A stretch of 64,000 nucleotides of DNA from Alteriqipengyuania flavescens (GTDB taxonomy: Bacteria; Pseudomonadota; Alphaproteobacteria; Sphingomonadales; Sphingomonadaceae): NCBI RefSeq assembly GCF_030406725.1, contig NZ_CP129107.1, forward strand, positions 2,088,501 through 2,152,500, read 5' to 3'. The notes under the pieces were generated by a model. The model did no database searches. It was given only the letters and a program-made list of their open reading frames with translations, and was not told the DNA's origin. A program made the position numbers and the translations under genes. Shown in pieces: positions 54,499-62,329 of this stretch (positions within the stretch are counted from its first letter, which is position 1; the number at the start of each line of letters is the position of its first letter).

Positions 54499-57051
54499 TC
54501 AATCGCGCAGGCGGTCGATAGCCTGGGCCAGCGCGACGTAGAGCTTGCCCATGTCGGACGAAAGCATCGTGACCGACAGCGCATTGCCGTCCCGCGTCGA
54601 CAGAAGGATGCGCAACATCGCTTCGAAGTCGTGGATGTAGCGGTTCACATGCTCGCGGAAATCGCTGTCTTCCTCGTAGATGTCGGCGATCGCGCGGGTT
54701 TCCTGGCTGTCCAGCAGGCGCACCGCGCGCCGGGTGAAGATACCGCGGTCGCCCTTGAGATAGGCGGCCCAGGCCGTGTCGCTGACTTCGTTCGAAAGCG
54801 CTTTCGACAGGTCAATGGCGTTCGAATTGAGGCTCTCGGTGATAAGCGCAACGCGGCGCGAAAAATCGTGGTCGACCTGCTCTTCCGCCCGGCCGCGCGC
54901 GTCCGCCACGCGGCGTTCGAGGTTGCCGGTCAGCTCGTTCACCATTGCAAGTTGATCGCGCAGCTGGGCTGCCGCCTCGCGCCCGCCTTCGGCCGCCGCG
55001 GCGGCTGCCGCATCGAGCGAGGCGATGGCCGCGCTGCTGCTGTCCTGCATCGCGCGTTCGATAGCCTTCGCGCTGCGTTCGCCGATCTTGCCAGCGTATG
55101 AGGCGACGGCATCTTCGCCGCCTTCACGCAGGTGGACGATGCTGTTCCTGACCGCCTCGTCGAGTTCTTCGAGAGCCTTGGTAATCCGGTCGCGCGCCGC
55201 TTCGCCTTCTGCCACGCTTTCGCCCAGGCGCTCGCGCAGGAGCGATAGCTGCTCGCCGGTCTTCTCCGTCTCCCCGCGCGCGTTGATGACATAGTCGCTG
55301 ATGCTGGACCCGGTCCGTTCGACCTCGGCCATCTCGTCTTTCAGGGCTTCGCTTTCGCCGCGCAGGGCCTGAAGGCGCCCTTCCGCCACGGAAATCGCCT
55401 TGGGCAGGATCACCTGCGAATGCTCCGACCCCGCCTGGATCAGCTCGAGCAGGCGCACGCTGGCATCGGTGAGCTGCTCCACCGAGACGCCGGTGCTTTC
55501 GAGCATCTCGCGACTGCTGGTGAGCCGCGCGACCAGCGCATCGCTGGAAGAAGAGAGTTTGGCCGCTACCGCATCGTCCTCGCTGCGCAGCGCGGTGAGG
55601 CGCCTGTCCAGTTCCTCGATCCGGTCGGTCAACAATTCGCCCTGGGCGGTGAGCGATTCGATCCGGCCGAGATGCGCCGCCTGCCGCGTTTCCAGCGCAC
55701 CGTCGAGCGCGGCCAACTTCTCCGCGAGCGTATCGCTCGCTTCGCCTGCCGAGGTGGCCATGCGCTGGCGTCGTGTCGCAAGGTCTTCTTCGAAGGCCCT
55801 GTTGCGCTCGACGATGGCGGCATCGACCCGCTCGGCCTCGTCGCGCAGCTCTGCAAGGCGCAAGTTTGCGGCTTCCAGGGCCTGCTGATCGATCCGGTCG
55901 ACCTCAGCGATGGCGGTACGCAACCGGTCTTGCAACGCGGCGATGGTGGCGCCGAGATGGGCGGCCGCTGTTTGCTCGCTGTCGCGCACGTTTTGTGCGG
56001 TGGCGGCGGCGTTTTCCTGCAAGGCCGCAACCCGCCGCTCCAGCGCGGCGATGGCCTCGGCTTCGTCGGCGGCGAGTTGTTCGCGCGTTTCGTCGAGCCC
56101 GGCTTTCAGCACATCGGCACGGCGATGGATCGCGGCCAGCGCTTCCACTTCGTTGCTGTCGAGTTCCCCGCGGAAGGCTTTGCTCCGTTCGCGCAGGGCG
56201 ACGAAACGCTCTTCGGACAGGGCCTCGATCTGGCCGGCGCGCAATTCGAGTTCGGCCAGCACCGCGCCCACTTGGTCGCGCAGGCCGTCGACCTGGCGCT
56301 CGCTGGCGGTGCCGAAATCGTTGAGACGGCGGAAACCGGCGACCAGCGTTTCCAGCTGCTCCTGCGCGCCTTTGCCGGCGGCACCGATCTGGTTGGCGAC
56401 ATCGCGGGCGGAATTGGCGACGACGGGTAAGTCGCCGCGCAGCCGCTCCATGTTGTCGAGCGCGGTCGTGCTGACTTCCGCGATGCGGTCGACATTGCGC
56501 TGGTTCTCGCCGATCAATTCCTCGATCCGCGCCGCGTTCTCGGACAGGCGCTGGGCGGCCACGCGGCCGAGATGTTCGAGGTCGCGGCTTTGCGCGGCGA
56601 TGAATTCGCGCGCCAGGCTGAGCTCGCGGTTGGTGGCGGTGAGCCGCGTTTCGAGCTGGGCCGATTCGTGGGAAAGCGCAGCCGCGGCCGCGCCATAGCG
56701 CCGCGCCTCGACCCGCGAGTTTCGCAGGGCGAGGAACCATACGGCGAGGGTGAGTACGACGGGCACGGACCAGCTGACGATCATGTCCGCCCATTCGGCA
56801 GGGGCAGCGCCGTCCAGGAAAGCGGCGCGGTTGACCCAGCCGAAAAAGCCGGTCCAACCGGCAATGGCGAGCAAGGCCAGGGTCGGCGCGATCCAGCTGC
56901 GGCGCATCGCCGGCCTTTCGCTTTCTTCCTCGTCCCAATCCTCGTATTCCGCCTCCGTTTCGTCGGCCAGGCGGTCGGTATCGGCAAGCTCGAGCGTGCC
57001 GTCGGGCTGGTGTTCCGTGTCGACCGGAACGAGGTGGGAACCGTTGCTCAT
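54499..57051 (-). CDS. Two-TM coiled-coil protein, candidate TipN-like polarity factor
   Basis: The product has 850 residues. An acidic cytoplasmic N-terminus (1-50) is followed by two membrane helices (53-73 and 91-109), then a very long coiled coil (about 115-780, rich in Ala, Glu, Leu, Arg with heptad spacing) and a conserved-looking globular end (FEAMLRILLSTRDG, then SSDMGKLYVALAQAIDRLRD). TipN of Caulobacter, the new-pole landmark, is about 880 residues with the same two-TM plus coiled-coil plan, and the C-terminus looks similar from memory. I cannot run an alignment, so a methyl-accepting or other coiled-coil scaffold remains possible. A CtrA-like box lies in its promoter. Confidence 0.8.
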   Translation of the reverse strand: MSNGSHLVPVDTEHQPDGTLELADTDRLADETEAEYEDWDEEESERPAMRRSWIAPTLALLAIAGWTGFFGWVNRAAFLDGAAPAEWADMIVSWSVPVVLTLAVWFLALRNSRVEARRYGAAAAALSHESAQLETRLTATNRELSLAREFIAAQSRDLEHLGRVAAQRLSENAARIEELIGENQRNVDRIAEVSTTALDNMERLRGDLPVVANSARDVANQIGAAGKGAQEQLETLVAGFRRLNDFGTASERQVDGLRDQVGAVLAELELRAGQIEALSEERFVALRERSKAFRGELDSNEVEALAAIHRRADVLKAGLDETREQLAADEAEAIAALERRVAALQENAAATAQNVRDSEQTAAAHLGATIAALQDRLRTAIAEVDRIDQQALEAANLRLAELRDEAERVDAAIVERNRAFEEDLATRRQRMATSAGEASDTLAEKLAALDGALETRQAAHLGRIESLTAQGELLTDRIEELDRRLTALRSEDDAVAAKLSSSSDALVARLTSSREMLESTGVSVEQLTDASVRLLELIQAGSEHSQVILPKAISVAEGRLQALRGESEALKDEMAEVERTGSSISDYVINARGETEKTGEQLSLLRERLGESVAEGEAARDRITKALEELDEAVRNSIVHLREGGEDAVASYAGKIGERSAKAIERAMQDSSSAAIASLDAAAAAAAEGGREAAAQLRDQLAMVNELTGNLERRVADARGRAEEQVDHDFSRRVALITESLNSNAIDLSKALSNEVSDTAWAAYLKGDRGIFTRRAVRLLDSQETRAIADIYEEDSDFREHVNRYIHDFEAMLRILLSTRDGNALSVTMLSSDMGKLYVALAQAIDRLRD

Positions 57052-57057
57052 GGCCCG

Positions 57058-57114
57058 AGCATAGCACCATCGGGGGCAGGATAAACCACGTCTTAACCAC
57101 CGCTGCCCTAGAGC
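57058..57114. promoter_or_regulatory. CtrA-like box in a divergent, leaderless promoter pair
   Basis: TAAA-N7-TTAACC at 57082-57098 differs from the CtrA consensus TTAA-N7-TTAACC at one base. On the plus strand it covers the -35 position of a -10-like CCTAGAGC (57107-57114), which ends eight bases before the ATG at 57123. On the minus strand TATGCT (57063-57058) ends six bases before the ATG at 57051, with the box over its -35 region. Confidence 0.6.
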
Positions 57115-57122
57115 CCTGCGTC

Positions 57123-57425
57123 ATGGCGTTTGAATCAGGCGATCTCGATGCGACACTGGCAGCGGCGGCGGGCGACGATCCGGCGCTGTTTGCCGAGCTG
57201 CGCACCGCGTTTTTCGAAAGCGTGGAGCGGCAGGTGGACTTGCTTTCCCGCGCCCGCTGCGACGGCAACTGGGCCGTTTCCGCAATGCGACTGAAAGGCC
57301 TTGCCGCCAGCTTCCAGGCCGATGACCTAATGCTGCTGGCCGAAGAAGCGCTCGACGCGGCACCGGGAGAACCGGGCGTCGTTCGCCGCCTGAAAGCCTA
57401 TCTGACGGATTTTCCGCAGGCCTGA
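57123..57425 (+). CDS. Hpt-like protein lacking the phosphorylated histidine
   Basis: The product has 100 residues and is predicted to be an all-helical four-helix bundle. The core AVSAMRLKGLAASFQADDLM (51-70) lines up with the Hpt signature AHxLKGxAxxxGAxxL, including Leu57, Lys58, Gly59 and the alanines, but the histidine is Met55. Without the histidine it cannot relay phosphate in the standard way. It could bind a kinase or response regulator as a decoy or adaptor. It is divergent from the coiled-coil gene and shares its CtrA-like promoter. Confidence 0.75.
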   Translation: MAFESGDLDATLAAAAGDDPALFAELRTAFFESVERQVDLLSRARCDGNWAVSAMRLKGLAASFQADDLMLLAEEALDAAPGEPGVVRRLKAYLTDFPQA

Positions 57426-57506
57426 CCGCTTCCGGCGCCACACTGCGCTTGGCTTGAAACCGCACCTCGCTTAAGTCCCGCAGCGCAATTTCGGGAGGTT
57501 TCGCAC

Positions 57507-58649
57507 GTGCGCATCGCATTGCTGACATTGCCTGTGGAGGAGGCGGGGACGGTCCATGTCCTTGGCCGCGCATTGGCGGAATGGCAGTGCGAAATGGCGC
57601 TGGCGCTGGGTTGTGAGCGCATCCTGCTCGTCGCGCCTGCGCTGACCGAACCTGCGCTCGACATACAGCACCAGGCGGAAGCGGGCGGGGCGAAGTTCCA
57701 GATCGTCCCCCACGCGCACCGCTTGCTCGGCCAATTGAAGACGGACGACGAGCTGCTGATCCTCGACCCGGCATTGCTGGTGCGGGGCGAGGCCGCGCGC
57801 GAGATGCTCGATACACCGCGCCGCATTTTCGTGATGCCGGAAACGGCGGGCGAGAGCGGCTTCGAGCGGCTCGATCGCGAAACACTCTGGGCCGGGGCTG
57901 CATGGCTTCCGGGCGCGATGGTCGAGCGGCTCGCCGATCTCGACAGCGATGCCGAGCCCGCCAGTGCCCTCCTGCGCATCGCGGCCGGCCTTGGTGTGCG
58001 GCGGCAGCATCTGCGCGATGAAGCGCTCGACAAGGCGGACTGGGCTGCGCTCCATTCGCAACAGGACGGCTTGGAAGTGGGGCGCGAGATCACGACCGAC
58101 CGTCTGGGCGCGGCGCCCGTCTCGCCCGGCGATTGGCTCGCGCATCGCCTCGTGCGCCAATGGCTGGTGAATGGGCAAGCGGCGGGCAGGGTGGGCCGGA
58201 TTGCCGCAGGCGCCGGAGCGGTTTTCCTGGGGGGAGCGATCGTGCTGCTGGCGCTCGGCTATGCGCTCTATAGCGTGCCGCTTGCGGGGCTGTCTTGGTT
58301 TGCCGGTACGATCCTGGCCCATTCGGGCAAGGTTTCCGGGTGGAAGCGAGGCGCGATGCTGATCGTACCGCTCGCATCGCTGGGGGCGCTCGCCGCTGCA
58401 CTGGCGGTGATACTGGCGCGCAGCTGGACGTGGACGATTGCAGGGTTCGTGATCGCGATGGTCGTCGCTTGGGCTATCGAGGCCGTGCGCGGCGCAGGAT
58501 CGAGCGGCAGCTGGCTGCGCGACGGCGTGTTCCTTGCGGTGGTGATCGGAGTGACCGGAGCGCTCGATATCGCATTCCTCGGTGCGACGGGGCTGATCGC
58601 GCTGGCCATCGGTGCCATCTGGACCGCGCGCCTGCGTACGCGTTCCTAA
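57507..58649 (+). CDS. Membrane protein with nucleotidyltransferase-like N-terminus
   Basis: The product has 380 residues from the GTG at 57507 (GGGAGG upstream). Residues 1 to about 190 have an alpha/beta pattern like sugar-nucleotide transferases (EMALALGCERILLV, DDELLILDPALLVRGEAA), but no canonical G-G-x-G-T-R-L motif. Residues about 230-380 are five or six membrane helices. The layout recalls bifunctional inositol-phosphate cytidylyltransferase/CDP-alcohol phosphatidyltransferase, but the CDP-alcohol motif (DGxxAR) is absent, so it may be a degenerate relative. Function unknown. Confidence 0.65.
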   Translation: MRIALLTLPVEEAGTVHVLGRALAEWQCEMALALGCERILLVAPALTEPALDIQHQAEAGGAKFQIVPHAHRLLGQLKTDDELLILDPALLVRGEAAREMLDTPRRIFVMPETAGESGFERLDRETLWAGAAWLPGAMVERLADLDSDAEPASALLRIAAGLGVRRQHLRDEALDKADWAALHSQQDGLEVGREITTDRLGAAPVSPGDWLAHRLVRQWLVNGQAAGRVGRIAAGAGAVFLGGAIVLLALGYALYSVPLAGLSWFAGTILAHSGKVSGWKRGAMLIVPLASLGALAAALAVILARSWTWTIAGFVIAMVVAWAIEAVRGAGSSGSWLRDGVFLAVVIGVTGALDIAFLGATGLIALAIGAIWTARLRTRS

Positions 58650-58677
58650 CGCGGAATTAACCAGAACCGCATATGGC
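58646..58677 (+). promoter_or_regulatory. CtrA-like box before the helical-protein/pseudo-kinase pair
   Basis: CTAA-N7-TTAACC at 58646-58662 differs from TTAA-N7-TTAACC at one base and overlaps the stop of the preceding gene. At the spacing seen in the other CtrA-like promoter, TATGGC (58672-58677) would be the -10. That would favour leaderless initiation at the ATG at 58685 rather than at 58673. Confidence 0.5.
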
Positions 58678-59632
58678 CGGGCACATGACATCTTCGGGCG
58701 AGGAGAACGCGCGCGGCACCGCCGACGCGCAGGAGCTGGCCAGCCGGCTCGCGCGCGGTGACGCGATGCGCGCCAGCGTCACGCCGATCCTGCGCCATAT
58801 GCTGCTGCATGACGACAACGCCCTGTTCTCCGACGAGATCATGGCCCGTGTCCACGGCTTCGTCTGGCATATCGCCGTCCAGCTTCTCACCGCCTACGCG
58901 CGGGCCGACGGTGTCGCGGATGCGGAAGACTACGCCGCCGGCAATGCCGAGATGCTGACCGAGTATCTGTGCGCCGACGAGGGCTTGCTCGGCCATCTCC
59001 ACGCGCTCGCACTGGAAGCTCGGCTCTCGGAACGGCTGGGCGAGCGCGGGATCGTCGACCCCATCGTCCCGCCGTTGGTGCAGGGACTGGTCGCCGCCAA
59101 GGACGAGACGGTCGCCGAAATGGCCATGGGCCTCATCGCCGCGCAGGCCCGTTTCCTGGAACAGGCGCGGCGCATGGAATTGCCGCTGGCCCAGTTGCCG
59201 GCAGACCATTTCGGCAAGGCGCTCGATATCCTCAAGTTGTGCGCGGGAGATGCGGCGGCTGGATCGGGCGCAAAGGCTTCGGACAAGCTGCGTGCGGATT
59301 ACTCCGAAGCGCGTTCGCGCCTCGGCCTTGCCTCGCGGCTGGTGACCGGGCTCGGCCAGAATGCCCGCGCCGCATTGACGGTCGACCAGTCGGGCGCGGC
59401 GTTGTTCACGACCGCGATAGCCATGGCATCCCGCCAGACCCGCGACGTGATCGTCGTGTCCTGCAACGACCGCCGCGCTTCGCGCCTGGGCCTCGCCCTG
59501 AAAGCGGCAGGCCTGAAACAGCGTGATGTCGAGGCGCAGTTCGCCTATCTCGAGATCGATCCGGCACTGGCCGAGGATTTCGAGGCGGTTAGTGCTGCGA
59601 TGGCTGCGCAAATGATCGGCGGCGCAGACTGA
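58673..59632 (+). CDS. Uncharacterised helical protein upstream of the pseudo-kinase
   Basis: The product has 319 residues from the ATG at 58673, or 315 if the ATG at 58685 is used; neither has a Shine-Dalgarno sequence. It is predicted to be almost entirely alpha-helical, with no membrane segment or signal peptide; paired helices around 80-160 and 190-300 suggest a repeat-type scaffold (for example HEAT-like or DUF2336-like). I cannot assign a family. Its stop overlaps the kinase-like gene by TGATG, which implies the two products work together. Confidence 0.75.
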   Translation: MAGHMTSSGEENARGTADAQELASRLARGDAMRASVTPILRHMLLHDDNALFSDEIMARVHGFVWHIAVQLLTAYARADGVADAEDYAAGNAEMLTEYLCADEGLLGHLHALALEARLSERLGERGIVDPIVPPLVQGLVAAKDETVAEMAMGLIAAQARFLEQARRMELPLAQLPADHFGKALDILKLCAGDAAAGSGAKASDKLRADYSEARSRLGLASRLVTGLGQNARAALTVDQSGAALFTTAIAMASRQTRDVIVVSCNDRRASRLGLALKAAGLKQRDVEAQFAYLEIDPALAEDFEAVSAAMAAQMIGGAD

Positions 59633-61014
59633 TGGCCGGCATCGGCCCCGAATTCATCGCCCGCGGTTTCACCGACGGTTCGGACACGCTGGTCAGCGCG
59701 GACGAGCCGCTCGCCTCGCTGCAGCTTGCGTGCGGCGGCGAATTGCCGGGAAAGCTGGCGGTTCCGGCCCTGCTCGAACTGGTGCGCAAGGCGCGCAGCT
59801 ACGACCTCAAGCTCGCCCGGGCAATCACCGCGCAGGACGAGGACGACACGATTACCGCATGGGCCGAAGTCACTCCGGAACGCGCGAGCGGCGGCTGTGC
59901 GATCGGGCTTGCCAATTGGCAGACCGTACCGCGCGCCGAGAACGACGGTGCGGAGGCAGGCGCACGGCGCGAAATCATCGAGCGGCAGGCTGCCGAACTG
60001 ACCGCGCGGCTCGACAAGGACCAGAACGTGCTGGCCGCTTCGGCAAACGGGCCGGCGCTGGCATCGCTGGCGCGGGCGATGCAGGCCGGCGCCGGACGCG
60101 CGTGGACGCAGTTCGCCCGTGTCGCGGGCAGCGCTCATGACCAGCCGCTCCACTGGCGCCTGCTCGACGGCGCAGAAATCGCTATCGATGGCGACCCGCG
60201 TAGCTGGCAGGCGACGCTGATCCCCGTGGGGAAGGGGCGCCCCGGCAGCGAAGGATTCGAACTGTTGCTTGGCAGCTTGCAGGCTCCGCCGCGTATCGAC
60301 CCGGCCGCTGGCGCACAGACCGCGACGTCCGCCGACCGGCTCGAAGCGACCGTCGGGCGGGAAATCGCCCCCGTGCTGCGCCAACCGATCGCCCGCATCA
60401 TCGCGAATGCGGAGACTATCCGCACGAAGCTCGCCGGTCCGCTCGCCGACGAATACAGCGACTACGCCGCCGATATCGCGGCAGCGGGTCAGCACCTGAT
60501 GGCACTGCTCGACGATCTCGCCGATCTCGAAGTGGTGGAGAACGAGAAATTCACCACCGCGCCCGACCAGATCGACCTCGCCGATGTCGCGCGCCGCGCG
60601 GTCGGCATCCTCGGCGTACGCGCCCGCGAGCGGGGCATCGTGATCGAAGGGCCGCCGGAAGGCGAGACGGCGCCGGCAACCGCAGAATTCCGGCGGGTCC
60701 TGCAGATCCTGCTCAACCTGGTCGGCAATGCGATCCGCTATTCGCCCGAAGGCGCGACCATCCGCCTGTCGTTGCAGGGCGACGCGCGCATGGCCCGCAT
60801 CACCGTGGCCGACGAGGGGCCGGGAATTTCACCGGAGGACCAGGCGAAAGTGTTTAGCAAGTTCGAACGCCTGGGCCGCAGCGGCGACGGCGGATCAGGC
60901 CTCGGCCTTTATATCTCACGCAGGCTGGCCCGTGCGATGGACGGCGATATTGCCGTCGAAAGCGAAGCCGGGAAAGGCGCGCGCTTCACCCTGTCGGTGC
61001 CCGCGCGCGCCTGA
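59632..61014 (+). CDS. Histidine-kinase-like protein without H-box histidine
   Basis: The product has 460 residues. Residues 1 to about 225 are a variable sensory region without membrane helices. The dimerisation domain (about 235-300) has the HisKA pattern (LRQP, then EYSDYAADIAAAGQHLMALL), but HELRTP reads PVLRQP, so the histidine position is Pro247. The HATPase domain is complete: N-box Asn366 (NLVGNAIRYSP), G1 (DEGPGIS), F-box and G2 (GSGLGL near 421). It therefore may bind ATP and partners but should not autophosphorylate on histidine. It recalls DivL of Caulobacter, where the histidine is a tyrosine. Confidence 0.85.
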   Translation: MAGIGPEFIARGFTDGSDTLVSADEPLASLQLACGGELPGKLAVPALLELVRKARSYDLKLARAITAQDEDDTITAWAEVTPERASGGCAIGLANWQTVPRAENDGAEAGARREIIERQAAELTARLDKDQNVLAASANGPALASLARAMQAGAGRAWTQFARVAGSAHDQPLHWRLLDGAEIAIDGDPRSWQATLIPVGKGRPGSEGFELLLGSLQAPPRIDPAAGAQTATSADRLEATVGREIAPVLRQPIARIIANAETIRTKLAGPLADEYSDYAADIAAAGQHLMALLDDLADLEVVENEKFTTAPDQIDLADVARRAVGILGVRARERGIVIEGPPEGETAPATAEFRRVLQILLNLVGNAIRYSPEGATIRLSLQGDARMARITVADEGPGISPEDQAKVFSKFERLGRSGDGGSGLGLYISRRLARAMDGDIAVESEAGKGARFTLSVPARA

Positions 61015-61020
61015 CGCGGA

Positions 61021-62304
61021 TCAGCGCTTGTCGACCGGCACGTAGTCGCGCTGCACCGGACCGGTGTAGAGCTGGCGCGGGCGACCGATCTTCTGGCCGG
61101 GGTCGGAGATCATCTCGTTCCACTGCGCTACCCAGCCTACCGTGCGGGCCAGCGCGAACAGGGCGGTGAACATGGTCGTCGGGAAGCCGATGGCGGACAG
61201 GATGACGCCCGAATAGAAATCGACGTTGGGGAACAGCTTCTTTTCGCGGAAATAGTCGTCGTTCAGCGCCATTTCTTCCAGTTGCAGCGCGGTCTCGAAG
61301 ACCGGATCGGTCACCTTCAGCGCATCGAACACCTCGCGCACGGTCTTCTGCATCACCGTCGCGCGCGGGTCGTAGTTCTTGTAGACGCGGTGGCCAAAGC
61401 CCATCAGGCGGAACGGATCGTTCTTGTCCTTCGCCCGCTCGATATAGTGCGGGATCTTGTCCGGCGTGCCGATCTCGCGGAGCATGTTGAGCGCCGCTTC
61501 GTTAGCGCCGCCATGCGCCGGGCCCCACAGGCAGGCGATGCCCGCCGCGATACAGGCGAACGGGTTCGCGCCCGAAGAGCCGGCCAGGCGCACCGTGCTG
61601 GTCGAGGCGTTCTGTTCGTGGTCCGCATGCAGGATGAAGATGCGGTCCATTGCCTTTTCGACCGCCGGGATCACCTCGTATTCCTCGGCCGGCACGCCGA
61701 AGGTCATGCGCAGGAAATTGCCGGTGTAGCTGAGCGAATTGTCAGGCTGCAGGAAGGGCTGGCCGATCGAGTACTTGTAAGCCCACGCCGCGATGGTGGG
61801 CATCTTGGCAATCAGGCGATGGCTCGAAATCTTCCGGTGCTCGGGGTCGGAGATGTCCGTGCTGTCATGGTAGAACGCGGACAGCGCGCCGACCACGCCG
61901 CACATGATCGCCATCGGGTGCGCGTCGCGGCGGAAGCCCTGGTAGAACTGGCGCAGCTGGTCGTGCAGCATCGTGTGGCGCGTGATCGTGTAGGTGAACT
62001 CGTCCAGCTCTTCCTGGCTCGGCAACTCGCCGTTCAGCAGGAGATGGGAGACTTCCATGAAGCTGGAGTGTTCCGCCAGCTGGCCGATCGGATAGCCGCG
62101 GTGGAGGAGAACGCCTTCCTCGCCATCGATATAGGTGAGGCCGCTCTCGCAGCTGGCGGTGGAGGTGAAGCCGGGGTCGAAGGTGAACGCGCCGGTCTGG
62201 CCGTAGAGCTTGCGGATATCGACCACGTCCGGGCCGCAGCTGCCCTGCAGTACGGGGTAATCATATTCGTTTCCGGCGAGGTGGAGTTTCGCGTTGTCGG
62301 CCAT
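61021..62304 (-). CDS. gltA: Citrate synthase
   Basis: The product has 427 residues from the ATG at 62304 (GAGGAGA upstream). Catalytic motifs: [46 protein letters not shown] and FPNVDFYSG. It is the hexameric (type II) form with the N-terminal extension. It condenses oxaloacetate with acetyl-CoA in the TCA cycle. It lies 25 bases downstream of gltX on the same strand and is convergent with the pseudo-kinase gene, 6 bases apart. Confidence 0.98.
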
Positions 62305-62329
62305 TGTGGTTCTCCTCAAATTTGCCCGT

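Follow-up and report, generated by a model that had tools for sequence, protein, structure and literature searches.

The locus at positions 54499 to 61014 of the DNA analysed here raises the question of whether five neighbouring genes form a signalling module connecting cell polarity with the cell cycle. This DNA, called the window below, is a stretch of 64,000 nucleotides from Alteriqipengyuania flavescens (contig NZ_CP129107.1). The original prediction, made from the letters alone, placed in this interval genes for a TipN-like coiled-coil protein with two transmembrane (TM) helices, an Hpt-like protein without its histidine, a membrane protein with a nucleotidyltransferase-like domain (NT), an uncharacterised helical protein, and a histidine-kinase-like protein (HK) without its histidine, together with two CtrA-like boxes.

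Gene content and conservation of the locus

All five genes were found in this interval at the predicted coordinates with intact open reading frames, the TipN-like gene on the minus strand and the remaining genes on the plus strand (Table 1). Comparison of the five proteins with Pfam and NCBIfam models supported the kinase assignment clearly (HATPase_c and HisKA) and the Hpt assignment weakly; the helical protein, identified below as a divergent DUF2336 protein, matched no Pfam or NCBIfam family.

Table 1. Genes and CtrA-type boxes of the five-gene locus, in window coordinates
Feature	Position	Strand	Description
TipN-like putative polar scaffold gene	54499..57051	-	850 aa; two predicted N-terminal TM helices, putative long coiled coil, strongly conserved C-terminal domain (~residues 678-850)
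CtrA-type box TAAACCACGTCTTAAC	57082..57097	+	inside the divergent TipN/Hpt gap
Hpt-like protein gene	57123..57425	+	100 aa; Met55 in SAMRLKGLAASF at the phospho-histidine position; family-specific RxRCDxNW stretch
Membrane protein (NT) gene	57507..58649	+	380 aa; nucleotidyltransferase-like N-domain, then helical membrane domain; AF2299-like architecture without catalytic motifs
CtrA-type box CTAACGCGGAATTAAC	58646..58661	+	left half overlaps the NT gene stop codon
Divergent DUF2336 protein gene	58673..59632	+	319 aa, all-helical
Pseudo-histidine kinase gene	59632..61014	+	460 aa; Pro247 for His; ATP-binding residues of the N, G1, F and G2 boxes retained; 1-base overlap with the DUF2336 stop codon

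When 151 genomes of the order were searched with the fourth, DUF2336-type protein, homologues were found in 47, all of them in Sphingomonadaceae. Forty loci selected by the presence of this homologue had the same arrangement, TipN-like, Hpt, NT, DUF2336, HK. The TipN-like and kinase genes were present in 40/40; NT was retained in 39/40 and Hpt was found in 31/40. The 40/40 for DUF2336 itself holds by construction, because the loci were chosen for it. Where the locus lacked Hpt, in nine genomes, the Hpt profile search matched nothing genome-wide. Because Hpt was gone from these nine genomes and NT from one locus, not every part of the module is essential. Wider sampling found the locus in other Sphingomonadaceae genera (L076, L077, L081, L126, L127, L128, L130 and L133); in some of these, DUF2336 was either missing or escaped the profile. 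At a locus of genus g6 (L129), TipN-Hpt alone was seen.

The locus is flanked by nuoN-birA-coaX-RNase J on one side and gltA-gltX on the other. In most loci these housekeeping flanks are conserved, to roughly the same degree as the five-gene module. The five genes could thus be unrelated and merely held in place between their neighbours, a reading also favored by several genomes of genus g2 in which the block is split, with the TipN-Hpt half next to RNase J and the NT-DUF2336-HK half next to citrate synthase. Against it, locus L048 retains all five genes with both flanks gone, and four others (L051, L060, L063 and L068) lack the RNase J side. Furthermore, the two conserved CtrA-type boxes described below serve both halves of the block, the kinase and the Hpt protein lost their histidine on the same branch, and the TipN-Hpt and DUF2336-HK pairs recur in distant families. 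We consider such passive retention unlikely. Gene losses aside, the order was the same in all 40 Sphingomonadaceae loci, which bears out the expected co-localisation and confirms a five-gene block of conserved order in this family. The author of the original prediction knew of no described system with this gene set, and none was found in the literature searched: searches for DUF2336, and for TipN combined with Sphingomonadales, returned no papers.

The five proteins and their relatives

Hydropathy analysis of the TipN-like protein predicted TM helices at residues 53-71 and 91-109, and a match to an SMC model (1.4e-6) over residues 463-726 gave an indirect sign of a coiled coil. Of 289 genomes of the class, 104 encoded its C-terminal domain, in one copy each with one exception, and all 16 proteins with this domain that were read had two N-terminal membrane helices. 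With a class-wide profile of the domain, a single homologue was recovered from most genomes of f59, a family with relatives named Caulobacter and Phenylobacterium, to which a DivJ-model search for Caulobacteraceae had also pointed. Alignment of the window protein with the Caulobacter homologue by hhalign gave E=1.4e-5 and a probability of 80. Judged by its size and architecture, this homologue is very probably TipN. The proposed kinship with TipN was thus upheld by both architecture and C-terminal domain. The window protein resembles this Caulobacter polar scaffold in its two N-terminal membrane helices, putative coiled coil, length of about 850 aa, single copy, and homologous C-terminal domain. 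The difference lies in the surroundings of the gene, which in the window adjoins the gene of the Hpt-like protein lacking the histidine and is linked to the NT, DUF2336 and pseudokinase genes, whereas no adjacent Hpt gene was found in the Caulobacteraceae loci read.

The Hpt-like protein matched the Pfam Hpt model at E=0.0025, below the gathering score, and 14 of 32 members matched the Hpt profile at E values up to 1. A search of solved structures with the Hpt profile returned only noise. In the alignment, the histidine position was occupied by M, Q, L, E or G, and by His in 0/32; the Met in the window protein agrees with the predicted absence of histidine. Nine further Sphingomonadaceae members likewise had no His, and the deepest-branching genus, g8, has kept it. 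In families f10, f11, f16 and f110, from other orders of the class, a His-intact Hpt gene either adjoins the TipN-like gene divergently or lies no more than 1.1 kb away. Because His-bearing Hpt genes accompany TipN-like genes in these other families, the TipN-Hpt pair appears to predate the Sphingomonadaceae, and the histidine was lost inside the family.

The kinase-like protein matched HATPase_c at 1.1e-27 and HisKA at 8.3e-6 (Pfam). The predicted lack of its histidine held throughout the alignment, in which 35 of the 38 pseudokinases had Pro at the H-box position and the other 3 had Ser; relatives in genera g2 and g14 had Arg, Val or Glu. Kinases adjoining DUF2336 genes in f4, f6 and g8 had an intact SHELRTP. 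In the kinase tree the pseudokinases formed one clade (100/100), which grouped with these three DUF2336-linked canonical kinases of g8, f4 and f6 (90/80).

A kinase-fold protein without the phospho-histidine has a precedent in DivL, a Tyr-bearing pseudokinase with weak ATP binding that binds DivK~P, acts on CckA, and shows that a pseudokinase can serve as a sensor (PMC4211667). Like DivL, the window protein occurs in an organism with the CtrA pathway. The window kinase is not DivL itself: it has Pro247 where DivL has Tyr, and the same genome contains a separate Tyr-bearing DivL-like gene (L109). Among the 12 HisKA matches in this genome, the His was absent only from these two proteins. The window kinase differs further from DivL in its conserved ATP-site residues and in its different docking residues. 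Positions H+3, H+7, H+12 and H+29 of DivL matter for DivK binding (PMC4211667). At the presumed response-regulator docking face, position H+8 is Arg and position H+12 is Asn in all 38 pseudokinases, unlike in DivL and canonical kinases. Because of this changed face, which argues against assuming DivK as the partner of the pseudokinase, DivK need not be that partner. The window protein also recalls the PleC/DivJ-type (PdhS) kinases, sharing the DHp helix features GP..Y..Y..DI..AG.HL and matching the NCBIfam DivJ model at 4.2e-32, short of its cut-off. It differs from them in lacking the histidine and the acidic residue after it, and in belonging to the separate clade with DUF2336-linked kinases.

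The ATP-site residues (N362, N366, D394, G396, G398, G420, G423 and G425) were invariant in 38/38 pseudokinases, beyond the need of mere scaffolding. This would suit a kinase that acts in trans, with its ATP domain phosphorylating the histidine of a heterodimer partner such as another kinase of the cell, so that the module would still be a phosphorylating one. The genome also encodes L114, a kinase that has the His and an FGP..Y-type DHp, and g6 has a relative of L114 close to TipN-Hpt (locus L129). However, no partner kinase gene was consistently linked in the module genomes, and the Hpt histidine was lost on the same branch, in keeping with a loss of phosphotransfer overall. A trans-acting kinase appears unlikely, and we favor a pseudokinase within a phosphate-free module.

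The fourth protein was, as predicted, all-helical in its structural model, for which no neighbour was found among the solved structures (PDB). It no longer stands unassigned. Neither the window protein nor any other in its genome matched PF10098 above gathering, but three module members matched the DUF2336 model (best 1.1e-6), and genus g2 and other genera have recognisable DUF2336 genes in the same slot. These kin in the same gene position ruled out a helical protein without relatives, and by these comparisons the protein is a divergent DUF2336. It shares with PF10098 proteins the adjoining kinase gene and the slot occupied in g2 by recognisable members, and differs from them in matching no Pfam family.

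The model of the membrane protein (pLDDT 88) comprised an N-terminal nucleotidyltransferase-like fold followed by helices. Foldseek matched it at E=3.2e-6 to 4o6m and at 3.9e-6 to MurU 4y7v; the fold match extended over the full length to CDP-alcohol phosphotransferases with a cytidylyltransferase-like domain, and to MurU. The predicted fold was thus recovered. The catalytic motifs were not: neither a nucleotidyltransferase G-loop nor a CDP-alcohol phosphotransferase motif was present in the alignments inspected. The protein therefore has the predicted two-domain architecture of AF2299/PIP-synthase-type CDP-alcohol phosphotransferases and of MurU but not their catalytic motifs, and it is probably a pseudo-enzyme of the AF2299/CDP-alcohol phosphotransferase type. 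The full-length fold match, and the retention of NT in all but one of the 40 loci, could place this protein at the core of a membrane or envelope module that acts at the pole on a nucleotide-linked or lipid substrate, either sensing or handling it, with the kinase and Hpt remnants serving only as its gate. The missing motifs speak against such a module, as do the sequences: NT diverges more than any other member (17-29% identity), with a weak NTP_transf_3 match in just 3 of 36 members. We regard an envelope module as quite unlikely, and NT is treated below as an added partner of a signalling complex.

Predicted CtrA control

Dyads of the TTAA-N7-TTAAC type are known CtrA sites (PMC9437464). 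Nine bases of this consensus were scored, and imperfect dyads were counted in comparison with random regions. Both window boxes were imperfect dyads with 8/9 consensus bases; no perfect TTAA-N7-TTAAC was found in the genome. Boxes with at least 8/9 bases were present in 27/41 TipN/Hpt gaps and at 25/36 NT/DUF2336 junctions, vs. 0.3-0.7% of random regions (about 0.3% for the junction box), counts that come from related loci and hence are not independent. At a threshold of at least 7/9, the gap box was present in 31 of 32 Hpt-containing loci, the window included, vs. 2.7% of random regions. Both dyads occupy fixed positions across the loci, and the left half of the junction box is often the stop codon. 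Although the bare TTAACC hexamer showed no excess in the window (4 seen, 4.7 expected), the imperfect dyads are conserved in position far above chance. This agrees with the two boxes anticipated in the control regions, and we infer that the module is controlled by CtrA at these two predicted sites.

The Sphingomonadales are reported to retain CckA-ChpT-CtrA, with DivJ-PleC-DivK degenerate or lost (PMC2877005). By eye, from their motifs, DivK-like (L148), CpdR-like (L152), CckA-like (L115) and DivL-like proteins were recognised in the window genome.

History and possible function of the module

The tree of the TipN C-terminal domain placed g8 outside all other sampled Sphingomonadaceae (97/89; 100/98 for the rest). 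Within this sampling, loss of the Hpt histidine, loss of the kinase histidine, and linkage of the two gene pairs fall on the same branch. Genus g8 is represented by one draft genome with the TipN-Hpt and DUF2336-HK pairs on different contigs, which leaves the spacing between them in g8 uncertain. The anatomy and history of the module are well supported. The shared branch of the histidine losses suggests the conversion of an old signalling relay into a complex that works without phosphate and is controlled by the cell cycle.

The explanation that we propose is a CtrA-controlled cell-pole module of the Sphingomonadaceae, to which we give an even chance of being correct. The TipN-like scaffold gene and a divergent Hpt gene would have been one older alphaproteobacterial pair, and the DUF2336 and histidine kinase genes another; the two pairs would have been joined, and a membrane pseudo-enzyme added to them. 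On the family stem, after the g8 split, the kinase and Hpt lost their phospho-accepting histidines, yet both have been kept, with many invariant residues. The TipN-like protein would anchor the complex at the pole; the pseudo-Hpt, pseudokinase, DUF2336 protein and membrane pseudo-enzyme would be binding partners without phosphoryl transfer, as DivL is in Caulobacter. The signal that these partners may take up or report could come from ATP bound to the pseudokinase, from a ligand in the membrane, or from a response regulator. The outcome would be a tuning of CtrA/DivK-type signalling, or of polar assembly, while CtrA is active during the cell cycle. From these sequence comparisons we infer an adaptor role in the CtrA/DivK network.

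DivL has been the main known example of a pseudokinase in bacterial cell-cycle control. In the present module the histidines of a kinase and of an Hpt protein disappeared on one branch, and both genes are linked to that of a putative polarity scaffold. Living relatives exist on both sides of this loss, because g8 and other families keep the histidine, which makes the change from relay to noncatalytic complex directly testable. The undescribed DUF2336 family gains a plausible context as partners of kinases. For the Sphingomonadales, given the reported state of DivJ-PleC-DivK, the module offers candidates for an organiser of CtrA signalling.

Gene content at other loci

At locus L046 (genome G109), the NT gene, for the membrane protein with a nucleotidyltransferase-like domain, was not found, and the DUF2336 gene starts within approximately 90 bases after the Hpt-like gene. 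Locus L129 of the Sphingomonadaceae genus g6 has the TipN–Hpt pair; no NT, DUF2336, or pseudokinase gene was found there. A His-bearing kinase near this pair (L129:4687-6330) resembles the L114 protein of the window's genome. Families f2–f8 of the order had up to 10 DUF2336 copies per genome; in most Sphingomonadaceae sampled, DUF2336 was a single weak copy or none was recognizable.

L114 and citrate synthase

Because the score of L114 against the kinase profile was very low, its ATPase domain may be degenerate.

Features in the window and its genome
Feature	Position	Description
L114	G000:C1:2684900 (window's genome)	kinase-like protein, 559 aa, intact His
Citrate synthase (gltA)	window 61021-62307	directly after the pseudokinase gene, convergent with it

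In nearly all loci, gltA was the convergent neighbor of the pseudokinase gene. A Caulobacter study that made use of tipN mutants found that the citrate synthase CitA controls CtrA and the G1-S transition independently of its catalytic activity (PMC7083601). The gltA–pseudokinase adjacency may be mere synteny.
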